The notes beneath the pieces are model-generated. The model was given only the letters and a program-made list of their open reading frames with translations. It was not told where the DNA came from and did no database searches. A DNA stretch of 64,000 nucleotides, from contig NZ_JACSJI010000003.1 of the NCBI RefSeq assembly GCF_014349105.1, positions 1 to 64,000 on the forward strand. Reading direction: 5' to 3'. This DNA comes from Caulobacter sp. 17J80-11. GTDB lineage: Bacteria; Pseudomonadota; Alphaproteobacteria; Caulobacterales; Caulobacteraceae. The translations under genes and the position numbers were made by a program. Positions 21,439-32,942 of this stretch are shown here, piece by piece. How positions within the stretch are numbered: the first letter of the stretch is position 1; each line of letters starts with the position of its first letter.

Positions 21439-22056
21439 TCACCGCTTGCGGAACAGGACGCTGAGGTTGTTGGCCGGCATCTCCACCCGCCGGGTGAAGG
21501 CCAGGCCGTGGCTGGCGGCCAGCGCCTTCACCTCGGCCAGGTCGCGCAGGCCCCAGGCCGGGTCACGCGACTTCAGACTCTGGTCGAAGGCCAGGTTGCT
21601 GGGCGCGGTCTCCACCTCGGCCTCCAGGTACGGGCCGTAGAGGTAGAGCAGGCCGCCCGCAGGCAGCACCCGCCCCGCGCCGGCCATCAGCCCCTCCGTC
21701 GCCGCCCAGGGCGAGATGTGGACCATGTTGATGCAGACCACCGCGTCGGCCCGGCTCACCGGCCAGGTCTGCGGCGCCACCGCGTCGAGCGGCAGGGGCG
21801 CAAGCAGGTTGGGAAGGCCGCTCGCCTCACGCCAGGCCTCGATCGAGGCGCGGGCGGTCGGGTCCGGGTCGGTCGGCTGGAAGGTCAGGTCGGGCAGGCC
21901 GGCGGCGAACCAGGCCGCGTGCTCGCCGGTCCCCTCGGCCACGTGCAGCACCAAACCCGAAGCGGGCAGGGCCGCGCGCAGCACCTCGAGGATGGGCTCG
22001 CGGTTGCGCAGGGCGGCGGGGGAGGAGAGGGCGGCGGGCGGTGACTGATTGAGCAT
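21439..22056 (-). CDS. DUF938 family SAM-dependent methyltransferase
   Basis: A 205-residue protein of the DUF938 (PF06080) family: SPAALRNREPILEVLRAALP at the N-terminus, motif I VLHVAEGTGEHAAWFA, FQPTDPDPTA after strand 2, and INMVHISPWAATEGLM at motif IV. The family is a class I Rossmann methyltransferase without an assigned substrate. Some relatives sit near DNA-repair genes, and here it precedes ogt, but this does not identify a substrate. Confidence 0.85.
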   Translation of the reverse strand: MLNQSPPAALSSPAALRNREPILEVLRAALPASGLVLHVAEGTGEHAAWFAAGLPDLTFQPTDPDPTARASIEAWREASGLPNLLAPLPLDAVAPQTWPVSRADAVVCINMVHISPWAATEGLMAGAGRVLPAGGLLYLYGPYLEAEVETAPSNLAFDQSLKSRDPAWGLRDLAEVKALAASHGLAFTRRVEMPANNLSVLFRKR

Positions 22057-23759: not shown

Positions 23760-23873
23760 CTCCCTCCCCTTTACGGGGAGGGTGCCCCGAAGGGCCGGGT
23801 GGGGCAGCGGGGGGCGGTCGCTTCCCCACCCTGGCCGCTGACGCGGCCGTCCCTCCCCGTGAAGGGGAGGGAG
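23760..23873. repeat. Long inverted repeat between convergent genes
   Basis: The outer arms CTCCCTCCCC (23760-23769) and GGGGAGGGAG (23864-23873) are inverted. Each end also carries its own small hairpin (CCCTCCCC with GGGGAGGG). Inner arms GGCCGGGTGGGG (23794-23805) and CCCCACCCTGGCC (23824-23836) pair as well. The whole 114 bp folds into one cruciform-like structure between osmC and the SWFGD gene and could terminate both. Confidence 0.7.
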
Positions 23874-27798: not shown

Positions 27799-28562
27799 CG
27801 CCCGCGCCAACGCCGTAAGGCTTCGCGCTCCAGGCCGCCGACCGCGGCGTTGAGCAGGAAGCCGAGCGTGGCCAGGAGCGCCAGAGCGGCGAACATGTCG
27901 GCGGTGCGCAGCCGATTGCCGGCCTCCAGGATCTTCCAGGCCAGCCCCTGGGTGGTCCCCGATCCGGCCACCCATTCGGCCACGACCGCGCCGATCACCG
28001 ACAGGCCGGCGGCGACCTTCACCCCCTCCAGCACGAAGGGCACGGCGGCGGGGAGGCGCAGGCGCGTCAGCCGCTGGAAAGGCGTGGCCTCGTAGAGGTC
28101 GAACAGGCGCTCCAGGTCCGGGTCGGCCGACTTCAGGCCGGTCAGCACGCCCGAGAAGATCGGGAAGAAGGCCACCACCGCCGCCAGCGCGGCCACCGCC
28201 AGGCCCGGCCGCTCCAGCCCGGCCCAGATCACCACCAGCGGGGCCAGCGCCACCACCGGCGTCACCTGCAGGCCGACCGCGATCGGACGCACGGCGCGTT
28301 CCACCATCGGGCTGAGCGCGGCGGGCAGGGCCAGGGCCGCCGCGGCGAGCGCGGCGACGCCGAGGCCCTGCAGGGCCATGACCAGAGTGTTGGCGGCGGC
28401 GTGCAGCAGTTCGGGCCAGCGCGCCGCGATGGCCGCGCCGATGGCCGAAGGCGCGGGCAGGAAGTAGCCGGGCACGGCCAGCAGGCGGCAGGCCGCCTCC
28501 CAGCCGCCGAGCAAGAGCGCGATCAGGATGAGCGGCGCGAGGACGTCGACGACGCGCTTCAT
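27795..28562 (-). CDS. ABC transporter permease, SsuC/TauC/ThiX type
   Basis: A 255-residue inner-membrane protein with about six membrane segments and the BPD_transp_1 EAA loop (VLTGLKSADPDLERLFDLYEATPFQRL, LRLPAAVPFVLEGVKVAAGL). The LIALLLGGWEAACRL N-terminus and PAPSAIGAAI are typical of the sulfonate/taurine/nitrate/HMP permeases. The ATG at 28562 overlaps the stop of the ATPase gene (ATGA). With the ATPase upstream and the NMT1-type binding protein beyond the DUF559 gene it forms one importer. The substrate cannot be assigned from the permease. Confidence 0.9.
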   Translation of the reverse strand: MKRVVDVLAPLILIALLLGGWEAACRLLAVPGYFLPAPSAIGAAIAARWPELLHAAANTLVMALQGLGVAALAAAALALPAALSPMVERAVRPIAVGLQVTPVVALAPLVVIWAGLERPGLAVAALAAVVAFFPIFSGVLTGLKSADPDLERLFDLYEATPFQRLTRLRLPAAVPFVLEGVKVAAGLSVIGAVVAEWVAGSGTTQGLAWKILEAGNRLRTADMFAALALLATLGFLLNAAVGGLEREALRRWRGR

Positions 28563-29293
28563 GCAGCCGTCTCCGCCAGGGCCAGGGCGGCCTCGACCGC
28601 GGCCACCGCCTCCCGGAAGCCCAGAGAGGTGCGGAAGCCCTCGGGACGGGGCAGGGGCGCGTCGACCGCGATCTCGGCGGCCGTGCGGCCGGGGCCGGGC
28701 GTCATCACCACCACGCGGCCGGCCAGGTAGACCGCTTCCTCGACGTCGTGGGTGACGAAGACCACGGCCGGGCGGGTCTGGTCCCACACGCGGTGCAGGT
28801 CCTCCACCAGCCGGCGGCGGGTCAGGGCGTCGAGCGCTGCGAACGGCTCGTCGAGCAGCAGCAGCTTGGGATCGGTGACCAGGGCGCGGGCCAGCGACAC
28901 GCGCATGGCCATGCCGCCGGACAGCTGCGCCGGGCTGGCGTCGCCATGACCGGACAGTCCGACCCGCTCCAGCGCCGCGTCGGCCCGCGCGCGGGCGTCG
29001 GCGACGCCGGCCAGTTCCAGCGGCAAGGCGACGTTGGCCCCCGCGCTCGCCCAGGGCGCGAGCGTCGGGGCCTGGAAGACCACGGCGGTCTCGCCGCGGC
29101 CGACCGTGCGCCGGACCTCGCCGCGCGTGGGCTGTTCCAGTCCGCCCAGCAGGCGCAGCGCCGTCGACTTGCCGCAGCCGGACGGTCCCACCACGGCGAC
29201 GATCTCGCCGGGCGCCGCGCCCAGCGAGAACGGCCCCAGCGCGCGCCCGCGCCGGCCGTAGTCGACCTCGACGGACCTGAGTTCAGCGATCAT
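28559..29293 (-). CDS. ABC transporter ATP-binding protein, SsuB/TauB type
   Basis: A 244-residue ATPase. Walker A is VGPSGCGKSTALRLLGG, the signature LSGGMAMRVSLARAL, Walker B KLLLLDEPFAALD and the H-loop VFVTHDVEEAVYLA. It is typical of nitrate/sulfonate/thiamine-precursor importers. Its Shine-Dalgarno sequence GGAGGAG is the end of a palindromic repeat that abuts the start codon. The stop overlaps the permease start. It energises uptake with the permease and the lipoprotein at 29806-30810. Confidence 0.93.
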   Translation of the reverse strand: MIAELRSVEVDYGRRGRALGPFSLGAAPGEIVAVVGPSGCGKSTALRLLGGLEQPTRGEVRRTVGRGETAVVFQAPTLAPWASAGANVALPLELAGVADARARADAALERVGLSGHGDASPAQLSGGMAMRVSLARALVTDPKLLLLDEPFAALDALTRRRLVEDLHRVWDQTRPAVVFVTHDVEEAVYLAGRVVVMTPGPGRTAAEIAVDAPLPRPEGFRTSLGFREAVAAVEAALALAETAA

Positions 29294-29330
29294 CTCTCCT
29301 CCCCTGCGAAGCGGGGGAGGGGGACCACGC
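29294..29330. repeat. Palindromic repeat, CTCCTCCCC...GGGGGAGG family, copy 1
   Basis: The element carries CTCCTCCCC at its left and GCGGGGGAGGGGGACCAC at its right, so it folds into a CCTCCCC/GGGGAGG hairpin. It is inverted relative to the copy at 29767-29802, with the DUF559 gene between. Its left end is directly joined to the ATG of the ABC ATPase gene and supplies its GGAGGAG. Confidence 0.8.
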
Positions 29331-29372
29331 GAAGCGTGGTGGAGGGGGCGAACGGCTGCGCTACCGGTTGCA

Positions 29373-29747
29373 TCACGCCCACACGCCTCGCGTGCGCGAC
29401 AGAACGAGGTTCCAGATCGCGTCGGCCGCGGCGTCCGGATCCTTCAGCACCTCGACCGCTTCGAGCCGCACGACTTCGACGCCCTTCGTCCTGAGCCAAG
29501 CGTCGCGCTGGATATCGTGCCTTGGCTGGTCGCCCATGGTGTGCCCCTGGCCGTCCACCTCGATCGCGAGCTTCAGTTGCGGGCAGTAGAAGTCGAGGAT
29601 GTACGGCCCGAAGGGATGCTGCCGCCGAAAGGCGGGGTGATCCTCGCCCCGATTACGCAGGCGAACCCAAAGGCGCGCTTCCGGCGTCGACAGGGTGCGC
29701 CGCAGCGATCTCGCCCGCTTCAGTGTGATCGCCTTGGGTGAGCGCAT
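29373..29747 (-). CDS. DUF559 family nuclease-like protein
   Basis: A 124-residue protein of the DUF559 (PF04480) family, which has the PD-(D/E)xK/Vsr-like endonuclease fold. Visible marks are RSLRRTLSTPEARLWVRLRN at the N-terminus, then FRRQHPFGPYILDFYCPQLK and LAIEVDGQGH, giving the Asp and Glu-x-Asp expected at the metal site, and a C-terminal EVVRLEAVEVLKD strand-helix. Activity is not established for the family. It sits between the binding protein and the ATPase of an ABC operon, framed on both sides by inverted copies of a palindromic repeat, which looks like an inserted cassette. Confidence 0.88.
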   Translation of the reverse strand: MRSPKAITLKRARSLRRTLSTPEARLWVRLRNRGEDHPAFRRQHPFGPYILDFYCPQLKLAIEVDGQGHTMGDQPRHDIQRDAWLRTKGVEVVRLEAVEVLKDPDAAADAIWNLVLSRTRGVWA

Positions 29748-29766
29748 GCCTTCCTCGGTCGCGCGG

Positions 29767-29802
29767 GGTGGTCCCCCTCCCCCGCTTCGAAGGGGAGGAG
29801 AG
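29767..29802. repeat. Palindromic repeat, CTCCTCCCC...GGGGGAGG family, copy 2
   Basis: Reverse-complement counterpart of 29294-29330: the two share CTCTCCTCCCC, a short TTCGAAGC-like centre and GGGGGAGGGGGACCAC with only a few differences. It lies between the DUF559 start and the stop codon of the binding-protein gene. Confidence 0.8.
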
Positions 29803-29805
29803 GGG

Positions 29806-30810
29806 TCACTTCGCCGGCTTGCCCACGAACTCCAGGGTGTAGGCGCGCTTGTAGTCGAGGTCCTTGGGATAGACGCCCTGCTCGGAGGCGACCTTGAAGA
29901 ACTCGGCCCAGCGCGCGTCGGTCATGGCCCCGACGCCCAGGGTCTTCGCGTCGCCGCCGTCGACCAGGGCGTAGGACTTCAGCTTGGCCCGGGCCTGGTC
30001 CAGCAGGTCCTGGGTCATCTCCGGATTGTCCTTGCGGATCAGCGCGTCGGCCTTGGACGCGTCGCCGTTCAGATAGTCGGTCCAGCCCTTGGCCGAGGCC
30101 TCGATGAAGGCGCGCACGGCCTGCGGGTGTTCTTTGATCAGCTTTTCGTTGGCCATCACCATGGTGGCGTAGGAGGGATAGCCCTCGTCGGCCAGCAGGA
30201 AGACCCTGGGCTTCAGCCCGGCCTCCTTCTCGATGGTGTAGGGCTCGCTGGTCAGATAGCCCTGCTGCACCGCGCGCTTGTCGGCCAGGAACGGCGCGGA
30301 GTTGAAGTTGTACTTGCGCACCTGGCTGTCGTTGAAGCCGTAGCGGGCCTTCAGCCACACCCAGAACGCCGTCACCGAGGCGTCGGCCAGCAGCATCGGC
30401 CGGCCCTTCAGGTCGGCGATCGACTTCAGCTTCGGGTCCGGGTGGGCGATCAGGACCTGCGGGTCCTTCTGGAAGAAGGCGGCGACCGCCTTCACCGGGG
30501 TCTTTTCCGCCGCCTGGTTCAGCACGATGAAGCTGTTCGAGCCCATGCCGAGCTCGACCGCGTTCGAGGCGAGCAGCTGGGGGACGTTCACGCCCGGGCC
30601 GCCCTGGACGATCTCGACGTCCAGTCCGCGGCGCGCGTACTCGCCCGAGGCCAGGGCCTGGTAGAAGCCGCCGTGCTCGGCCTGGGCCCGCCAGTCGGTG
30701 GCGAAGCGGATCTTCACCCGCCCCGGCGCGTCGGCCGGCTCCTGCGGCTTCGGTCCGCACGCGGTGACGGCGAGTGCGGCGGCGAGCGCCAGCAACGCGC
30801 GACGATTCAT
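29806..30810 (-). CDS. ABC transporter substrate-binding lipoprotein, NMT1/THI5 family
   Basis: A 334-residue periplasmic binding protein. The N-terminus ends in AALAVTACG, a lipobox. The fold begins KIRFATDWRAQAEHGGFYQA, the pattern of ThiY/RibY-like proteins that bind pyrimidine or related vitamin precursors, then GVNVPQLLASNAVELGMGS and QQGYLTSEPYTIEKEAG. Relatives bind formyl-aminopyrimidine/HMP, riboflavin, taurine or nitrate. I saw no TPP or FMN riboswitch upstream, so the ligand stays open. It is encoded first in the importer operon, before the DUF559 insertion. Confidence 0.88.
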   Translation of the reverse strand: MNRRALLALAAALAVTACGPKPQEPADAPGRVKIRFATDWRAQAEHGGFYQALASGEYARRGLDVEIVQGGPGVNVPQLLASNAVELGMGSNSFIVLNQAAEKTPVKAVAAFFQKDPQVLIAHPDPKLKSIADLKGRPMLLADASVTAFWVWLKARYGFNDSQVRKYNFNSAPFLADKRAVQQGYLTSEPYTIEKEAGLKPRVFLLADEGYPSYATMVMANEKLIKEHPQAVRAFIEASAKGWTDYLNGDASKADALIRKDNPEMTQDLLDQARAKLKSYALVDGGDAKTLGVGAMTDARWAEFFKVASEQGVYPKDLDYKRAYTLEFVGKPAK

Positions 30811-32742: not shown

Positions 32743-32746
32743 TGAG

Positions 32747-32786
32747 CCTCCTCCCCTGCGGAGCGCAGCGGAGCGGGGGAGGGGGG
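32747..32786. repeat. Palindromic repeat, CTCCTCCCC...GGGGGAGG family, copy 3
   Basis: CCTCCTCCCCTGCGGAGC at the left and GAGCGGGGGAGGGGGG at the right, with an extra GCAGCG in the centre. It abuts the uup start region and contributes GGGGAGGAGG as its ribosome binding site. Confidence 0.75.
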
Positions 32787-32890
32787 CCGCGAAGCGGTGG
32801 AGGGGAGCGACAGCGCAGACATCGGGCGACGATTTAGAGGCATGACGGGGACATGTAGGGGGCGCGGCTCGCCCCCTCCACCACCCTGCG

Positions 32891-32932
32891 GGTGGTCCCC
32901 CTCCCCCGCTCCCGTTGGTCGCAGGGGAGGAG
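32891..32932. repeat. Palindromic repeat, CTCCTCCCC...GGGGGAGG family, copy 4
   Basis: Reverse-oriented partner of copy 3: GGTGGTCCCCCTCCCCCGC at the left and GCAGGGGAGGAG at the right. No gene lies between copies 3 and 4, so this is an inverted pair without a cargo gene. Confidence 0.75.
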
Positions 32933-32942
32933 GGCGGACCTC

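Follow-up and report, generated by a model that had tools for sequence, protein, structure and literature searches.

A DUF559 nuclease gene paired with inverted palindromic repeats in Caulobacter sp. 17J80-11 and an apparently undescribed repeat-nuclease partnership in distant bacteria

A small DUF559 nuclease gene in Caulobacter sp. 17J80-11 lies between inverted copies of a short palindromic repeat, and the same kind of pairing recurs in distant bacteria. The association between repeat and nuclease is, we think, secure. The most likely reading, to which we give a probability of about 0.65, is that the cassette works like a REP/RAYT pair but with a nuclease of the homing-endonuclease type instead of an HUH transposase. 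That DUF559 moves the repeats is inferred, since no movement was observed and no biochemistry for the pair was found.

The cassette and its repeat units

The window analyzed here is the whole stretch of 64,000 nucleotides at positions 1 to 64,000 of contig NZ_JACSJI010000003.1 (assembly GCF_014349105.1). A preliminary description, made from the sequence alone, had pointed to a 125-codon DUF559 gene that splits an ABC operon, flanked by near-identical inverted palindromes also present twice near 32.8 kb. These observations were confirmed, and the following features were delimited.

28559-29293, minus strand: host gene, ABC transporter ATPase, left side of the insertion gap
29294-29350, plus strand: left terminal unit, with outer hairpin 29296-29322, inner hairpin 29324-29340 and purine mirror block 29341-29348 (mirror of 29313-29320)
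29373-29747, minus strand: DUF559 (PF04480) PD-(D/E)xK nuclease gene, 124 aa (125 codons with the stop); D52, E63, D65 and D78 invariant in our protein alignment
29768-29802, minus strand: right terminal unit, truncated, with the outer hairpin kept and the inner hairpin and mirror block lost relative to the sister genome G001
29806-30810, minus strand: host gene, NMT1-type substrate-binding protein, right side of the insertion gap
32745-32815, plus strand: first unit of a gene-free inverted doublet of the same repeat type
32864-32936 (approximate), minus strand: second, inverted unit of the same doublet
23762-23872 (approximate), no strand assigned: inverted doublet of another mirror-hairpin subtype

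The permease of the operon lies further on. The gene matched PF04480 at 9.5e-26, with 90.3 bits against a curated cutoff of 20.6. The arms at 29294-29328 and 29768-29802 are 35 nt long and 97% complementary. The left unit consists of an outer hairpin (C-rich 5' arm, GGGGGAGG-type 3' arm), an inner hairpin, and a purine block, GGAGGGGG, that is the mirror, not the complement, of the outer 3' arm. This unit matched a double-hairpin pattern that we had designed from such units, with 1 match in the window against 0.00 expected in 100 dinucleotide shuffles, and it folded as single-stranded DNA with a z score of -3.7. A first, strict palindrome pattern had given 4 matches in the genome (two palindromes, each on both strands) and 5 in its control, and it was replaced by the mirror pattern. 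The fold of the right unit gave no signal (z = -0.68), which is explained by its truncation; the same cassette in the sister genome (G001, locus L174) has the inner hairpin and the mirror block. In the gene-free doublet, which spans 32745-32940, the first unit folded no better than shuffles (z = -0.34), and the second gave a z score of -3.2.

Generality, the mirror rule and cognate pairing

Next, to determine whether the pairing is general, DUF559 genes were collected. The genome of the window (G000) has 4 DUF559 matches, and the one other genome of its genus in our set has 7. Of 60 Caulobacteraceae genomes, 47 have at least one, with 157 matches in all, up to 11 per genome. We took 119 of these, mostly the best-scoring full-length ones, of which 116 had both flanks of at least 150 nt. 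Local alignment of the left flank with the reverse complement of the right flank reached a score of 36 in 89 of 116 loci, against 0 of 222 windows shifted by 1 kb in the same loci. The direct orientation reached this score in 35 of 116 loci and random cross-genome flank pairs in 53 of 587, since units are palindromic and families are shared. Of the 27 loci that failed, about 21 by eye kept a unit-type stem on one or both sides. Inverted flanks were also found in 18 of 28 loci from other Alphaproteobacteria (0 of 52 windows), the loci newly returned for other families in a search in which 43 of 115 genomes had a match. In distant phyla, the counts were 12 of 31 against 0 of 54; this far set is 31 of 34 loci, without L174 and two partial hits, and the positives include Bacteroidota, Cyanobacteria, a gammaproteobacterium and a member of Rickettsiales. 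In three cyanobacterial loci (L199, L201 and L191), the DUF559 genes are flanked by CCCCCCTT-AAGGGGGG hairpins with a GGGGGGAT tail. A hairpin-plus-mirror unit occurred in the flanks of 101 of 119, 28 of 28 and 23 of 31 loci of the three sets, against 9 of 225, 0 of 52 and 3 of 54 windows, respectively.

We then asked whether such hairpins might simply be terminators or insulators that bracket any small intergenic gene. The units are G+C-rich hairpins, and those inspected lie largely between genes. However, UDG genes of the same 60 genomes, used as a gene-centered control (30 best loci, 29 with flanks), had inverted flanks in 0 of 29 and a unit in 1 of 30, and small GIY-YIG genes had a mirror unit in 0 of 30. 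This explanation is therefore poorly compatible with the data and very unlikely.

Across families, the outer 3' arm changes and the downstream block changes with it: GGAGAAGG with GGATGAGG, GGGGGAGG with GGAGGGGG, GGAGAGGG with GGGTGAGG, GGGGAGGG with GGGTGGGG, and GGGAAGGG with GGGATGGG. G stands opposite G, and A or T opposite A. For 123 asymmetric arms of the family set, the mirror beat the direct repeat in 85 and lost in 5, with 33 tied. The far set gave 19 against 4 of 29, but the test was weak in the class set (11 against 6 of 31). The score gave T for A 0.8 of a match in both orientations, and the arms are not independent. The inner hairpin of one family also keeps its pairing while its sequence changes (47 distinct segments, mean exact stem of 4.6 against 2.9 for swapped halves). 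The mirror rule is what an antiparallel purine-motif triplex of the block on its own hairpin (G.GC, A.AT, T.AT) would need, although this structure is only inferred.

Repeat sequence follows DUF559 phylogeny. Protein tree distance and repeat similarity correlated between genomes (89 loci, 3818 pairs, rho = -0.28, 0 of 999 permutations as extreme) and within genomes (98 pairs, not independent, rho = -0.37, nominal p = 2e-4), which shared host ancestry alone does not explain. Over the 60 genomes, the number of GGGGAG-type units, the only type that the pattern sees, follows the DUF559 count, with a median of 1 in 13 genomes with none, 4.5 in 16 with one and 43 in 31 with two or more (rho = 0.68; genus means, 0.62). 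There are exceptions: three of the 13 genomes without DUF559 (G013, G035 and G054) hold 44, 40 and 20 units, and G050 has 239 (42 in its control) with one DUF559. Samples of 464 kb of G000 (window included) and 380 kb of another genome, G055, hold 25 and 57 units (1 and 1 after shuffling). Inverted doublets numbered 9 in G000, 7 of them with gaps of 59-71 nt, and 18 were called in G055, of which 5 overlap and so are not real doublets and 4 have gaps of 63-69 nt. No inverted pair 200-1500 nt apart was seen in these samples by the unit finder, which also misses the window's own cassette, whose right unit is truncated.

A further question was whether DUF559 is merely a passenger, namely, a horizontally moving defense or repair gene carried between intergenic repeats by homologous recombination. 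One inverted pair of mirror-hairpin units in G001, which had been expected to hold DUF559, encloses instead a UDG-superfamily gene (PF03167, 1.7e-14; L316:545-1366, corresponding to G001:C199:28544-29365), a passenger or another partner, so other genes can sit there. PADLOC gave weak hits to DpdF and mREase_II, and PHROGs also gave only weak hits. On the other hand, CGTC-type repeats, present in 37 of the 60 genomes, flank 0 of 119 DUF559 genes by the strict motif. Together with the covariation within genomes and the recurrence across phyla, this specificity makes the passenger reading unlikely.

Occupancy of insertion sites in relatives

To examine the insertion site, the joined ABC flanks were searched in 199 family genomes. 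All had some match, in several only a weak or partial one. The 28 loci fetched as best contiguous matches have a gap of -10 to 32 nt and are empty sites, by the way they were chosen. Of 20 loci chosen because the match was split or short, by eye 10 hold gene-free doublets of several families, 1 a single unit, 3 (L213, L214 and L215) CGTC-type repeats, 2 DUF559 cassettes, 1 (L208, genome G092) two units around a DUF559 remnant, and 3 none of these. The remnant keeps 42 N-terminal residues (60% identical to the window protein, 1e-10) and lacks the rest. DUF559 occupies this gap in G000, G001 and three other genomes (G009, G046 and G147). These copies lie in one clade of 10 of 120 tips (support, 0.857), so ancestral presence with losses is as possible as repeated insertion.

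A second site, a terminase-portal gap of a phage- or GTA-like cluster, holds DUF559 in 27 of 30 fetched genomes of one genus (of 66 with a match), by eye with different repeat families; it is empty in 1 and unresolved in 2. Cassettes can thus be very stable. By eye, the same intergenic site of two congeneric genomes (L002 and L010) holds DUF559 cassettes of different repeat types. No target duplication was found beyond chance: a direct word of 6 or more near the outer ends was present in 8 of 107 loci, against 5.25% of random pairs. A search for a recent insertion of the cassette at locus L079 found no clean empty site. Of 20 loci looked at (of 30 returned), one is the cassette itself and 15 could not be resolved; of the 4 others, 2 hold doublets of another type, 1 a CGTC-like insert by eye and 1 an unrelated gene.

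These data also bear on the possibility that the repeats are spread by something else and that DUF559 is a selfish homing endonuclease, which cuts gene-free doublets and is copied into them by recombination between the flanking units. The presence of doublets in some species and cassettes in others at the same gap, the lack of a detected target duplication, the different families in the terminase-portal gap, and the structural similarity described below are consistent with it. However, it leaves the repeats without a mover although their number follows the DUF559 number, and none of the 4 resolved relatives at the L079 site has a doublet of the cassette's own repeat type. We consider it unlikely, though less so than the other alternatives.

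In our preferred reading, the gene-free repeats, often inverted doublets, are non-autonomous derivatives of the cassette. The proposed mechanism is inferred: when single-stranded, the unit folds into a hairpin whose mirror block lies back on the stem as a triplex; DUF559 recognizes this end and nicks or cuts there or at a target; and host repair or replication then copies the unit, doublet or cassette into a new intergenic place. Old copies would persist vertically and decay, as the truncated right arm in the window suggests.

The enzyme, a parallel GIY-YIG pair and known systems

In 179 aligned DUF559 domains, four acidic residues (D, E, D, D) are present in all, with H at 0.98 and Q at 0.99. 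The fold predicted with AlphaFold2 (pLDDT, 89; pTM, 0.82) is nearest to NGO0050, the homing endonuclease I-Bth0305I and Vsr: 3hrl gave a Z score of 14.3, the catalytic domain of I-Bth0305I (3r3p) 12.7 and Vsr 9.9. Vsr ties with two mitoribosomal proteins (9.7 and 9.6), and Holliday-junction resolvases (4.5-7.6) and TnsA (6.5) follow. By sequence profile, 3hrl (4e-34), 3r3p (1.3e-4) and PvuRts1I (6e-4) matched.

DUF559 could alternatively be a host repair enzyme, a Vsr-type T:G mismatch nickase, with terminator or incidental hairpins. The Caulobacter DUF559 protein VsrA (CCNA_02930) is needed for the SOS response of cells that lack a cytosine methyltransferase (PMC12907096), which fits an active nuclease. 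In the parts of that study consulted, mismatch repair is given as a hypothesis and flanking repeats are not mentioned. This reading does not explain the inverted cognate flanks, the number of DUF559 matches per genome or the repeat families, and we find it improbable, although it is compatible with ours. The DNA damage response that depends on VsrA might be a side effect of an element's nuclease, and the pairing gives DUF559, a widespread domain of unknown function, a candidate role.

A parallel pair was also noticed. CGTC-type REPs, most of them alphaproteobacterial, are reported to seem to lack a dedicated transposase (PMC3733652). The 30 best GIY-YIG loci of the same 60 genomes have inverted flanks in 19. 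The strict CGTC motif was found in the flanks of 9 of 30 GIY-YIG, 0 of 119 DUF559 and 0 of 30 UDG genes, and more of the GIY-YIG flanks look CGTC-like by eye. GIY-YIG counts correlated with CGTC counts (rho = 0.54) and not with mirror units (0.09), whereas DUF559 counts correlated with mirror units (0.68) and weakly with CGTC (0.37). GIY-YIG counts include the UvrC-sized match, and 13 genomes with two or more GIY-YIG matches show no CGTC match by this pattern. In G000, a dense run of CGTC-type repeats on one contig (C20:1826-23856) surrounds a GIY-YIG gene (21629-21847). Small GIY-YIG nucleases are candidate dedicated enzymes for CGTC REPs. A bolder reading, possible but in our view somewhat less likely than not, is that bacteria hold several unrelated, undescribed classes of repeat-mobilizing elements in which a single hydrolytic nuclease of the homing-endonuclease type, with host repair, replaces the transposase. 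DUF559 would move mirror-hairpin repeats whose ends fold into purine-motif triplexes, small GIY-YIG nucleases would move CGTC-type REPs, and this would account for much of the dispersed palindromic DNA in Alphaproteobacteria, Cyanobacteria and Bacteroidota. No report of either pairing, and no enzyme named for the mirror-hairpin repeats, was seen in the titles and opening parts of abstracts examined, which did not extend to preprints or most subscription papers.

The preliminary description had likened the layout to REP/RAYT pairs with a Vsr-like enzyme, possibly an undescribed class of repeat-associated mobile element. This is supported by the covariation of protein and repeat, the correlated copy number and the predicted fold, with two limits: movement of the palindromes by the protein is inferred, and the palindrome described is one of several cognate families that share an architecture rather than a sequence. 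As in REP/RAYT pairs and REPINs (PMC2817692, PMC3116915, PMC8266576, PMC3733652), a small nuclease gene is flanked by inverted palindromic repeats, the same repeats are dispersed, often as inverted doublets, and several families with persistent copies occur per genome. The enzyme, however, is a PD-(D/E)xK protein and not a tyrosine transposase, so the cassette does not belong to the RAYT family; only DUF559 (above the cutoff) and MTES_1575 (below it) matched the gene, and the closest solved folds are PD-(D/E)xK nucleases. In addition, the unit has a purine mirror block that we did not see described for REPs in the work consulted. CGTC-type REPs are likewise alphaproteobacterial, occur as dimers and were also found by eye in the same ABC gap in three relatives, but they differ in sequence. 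I-Bth0305I shares the catalytic-domain fold and profile similarity and may offer a precedent for copying by host repair. Vsr shares the predicted fold and VsrA the DUF559 domain; Vsr is tied to cytosine methylation and mismatch repair. As in a classical insertion sequence, terminal inverted repeats surround one enzyme gene and empty sites exist in relatives, but no target-site duplication was detected. The MITEs and CIR elements of Caulobacter (PMC2229807) are also small dispersed intergenic elements with hairpins, CIRs being ~110-bp repeats with a GANTC motif.
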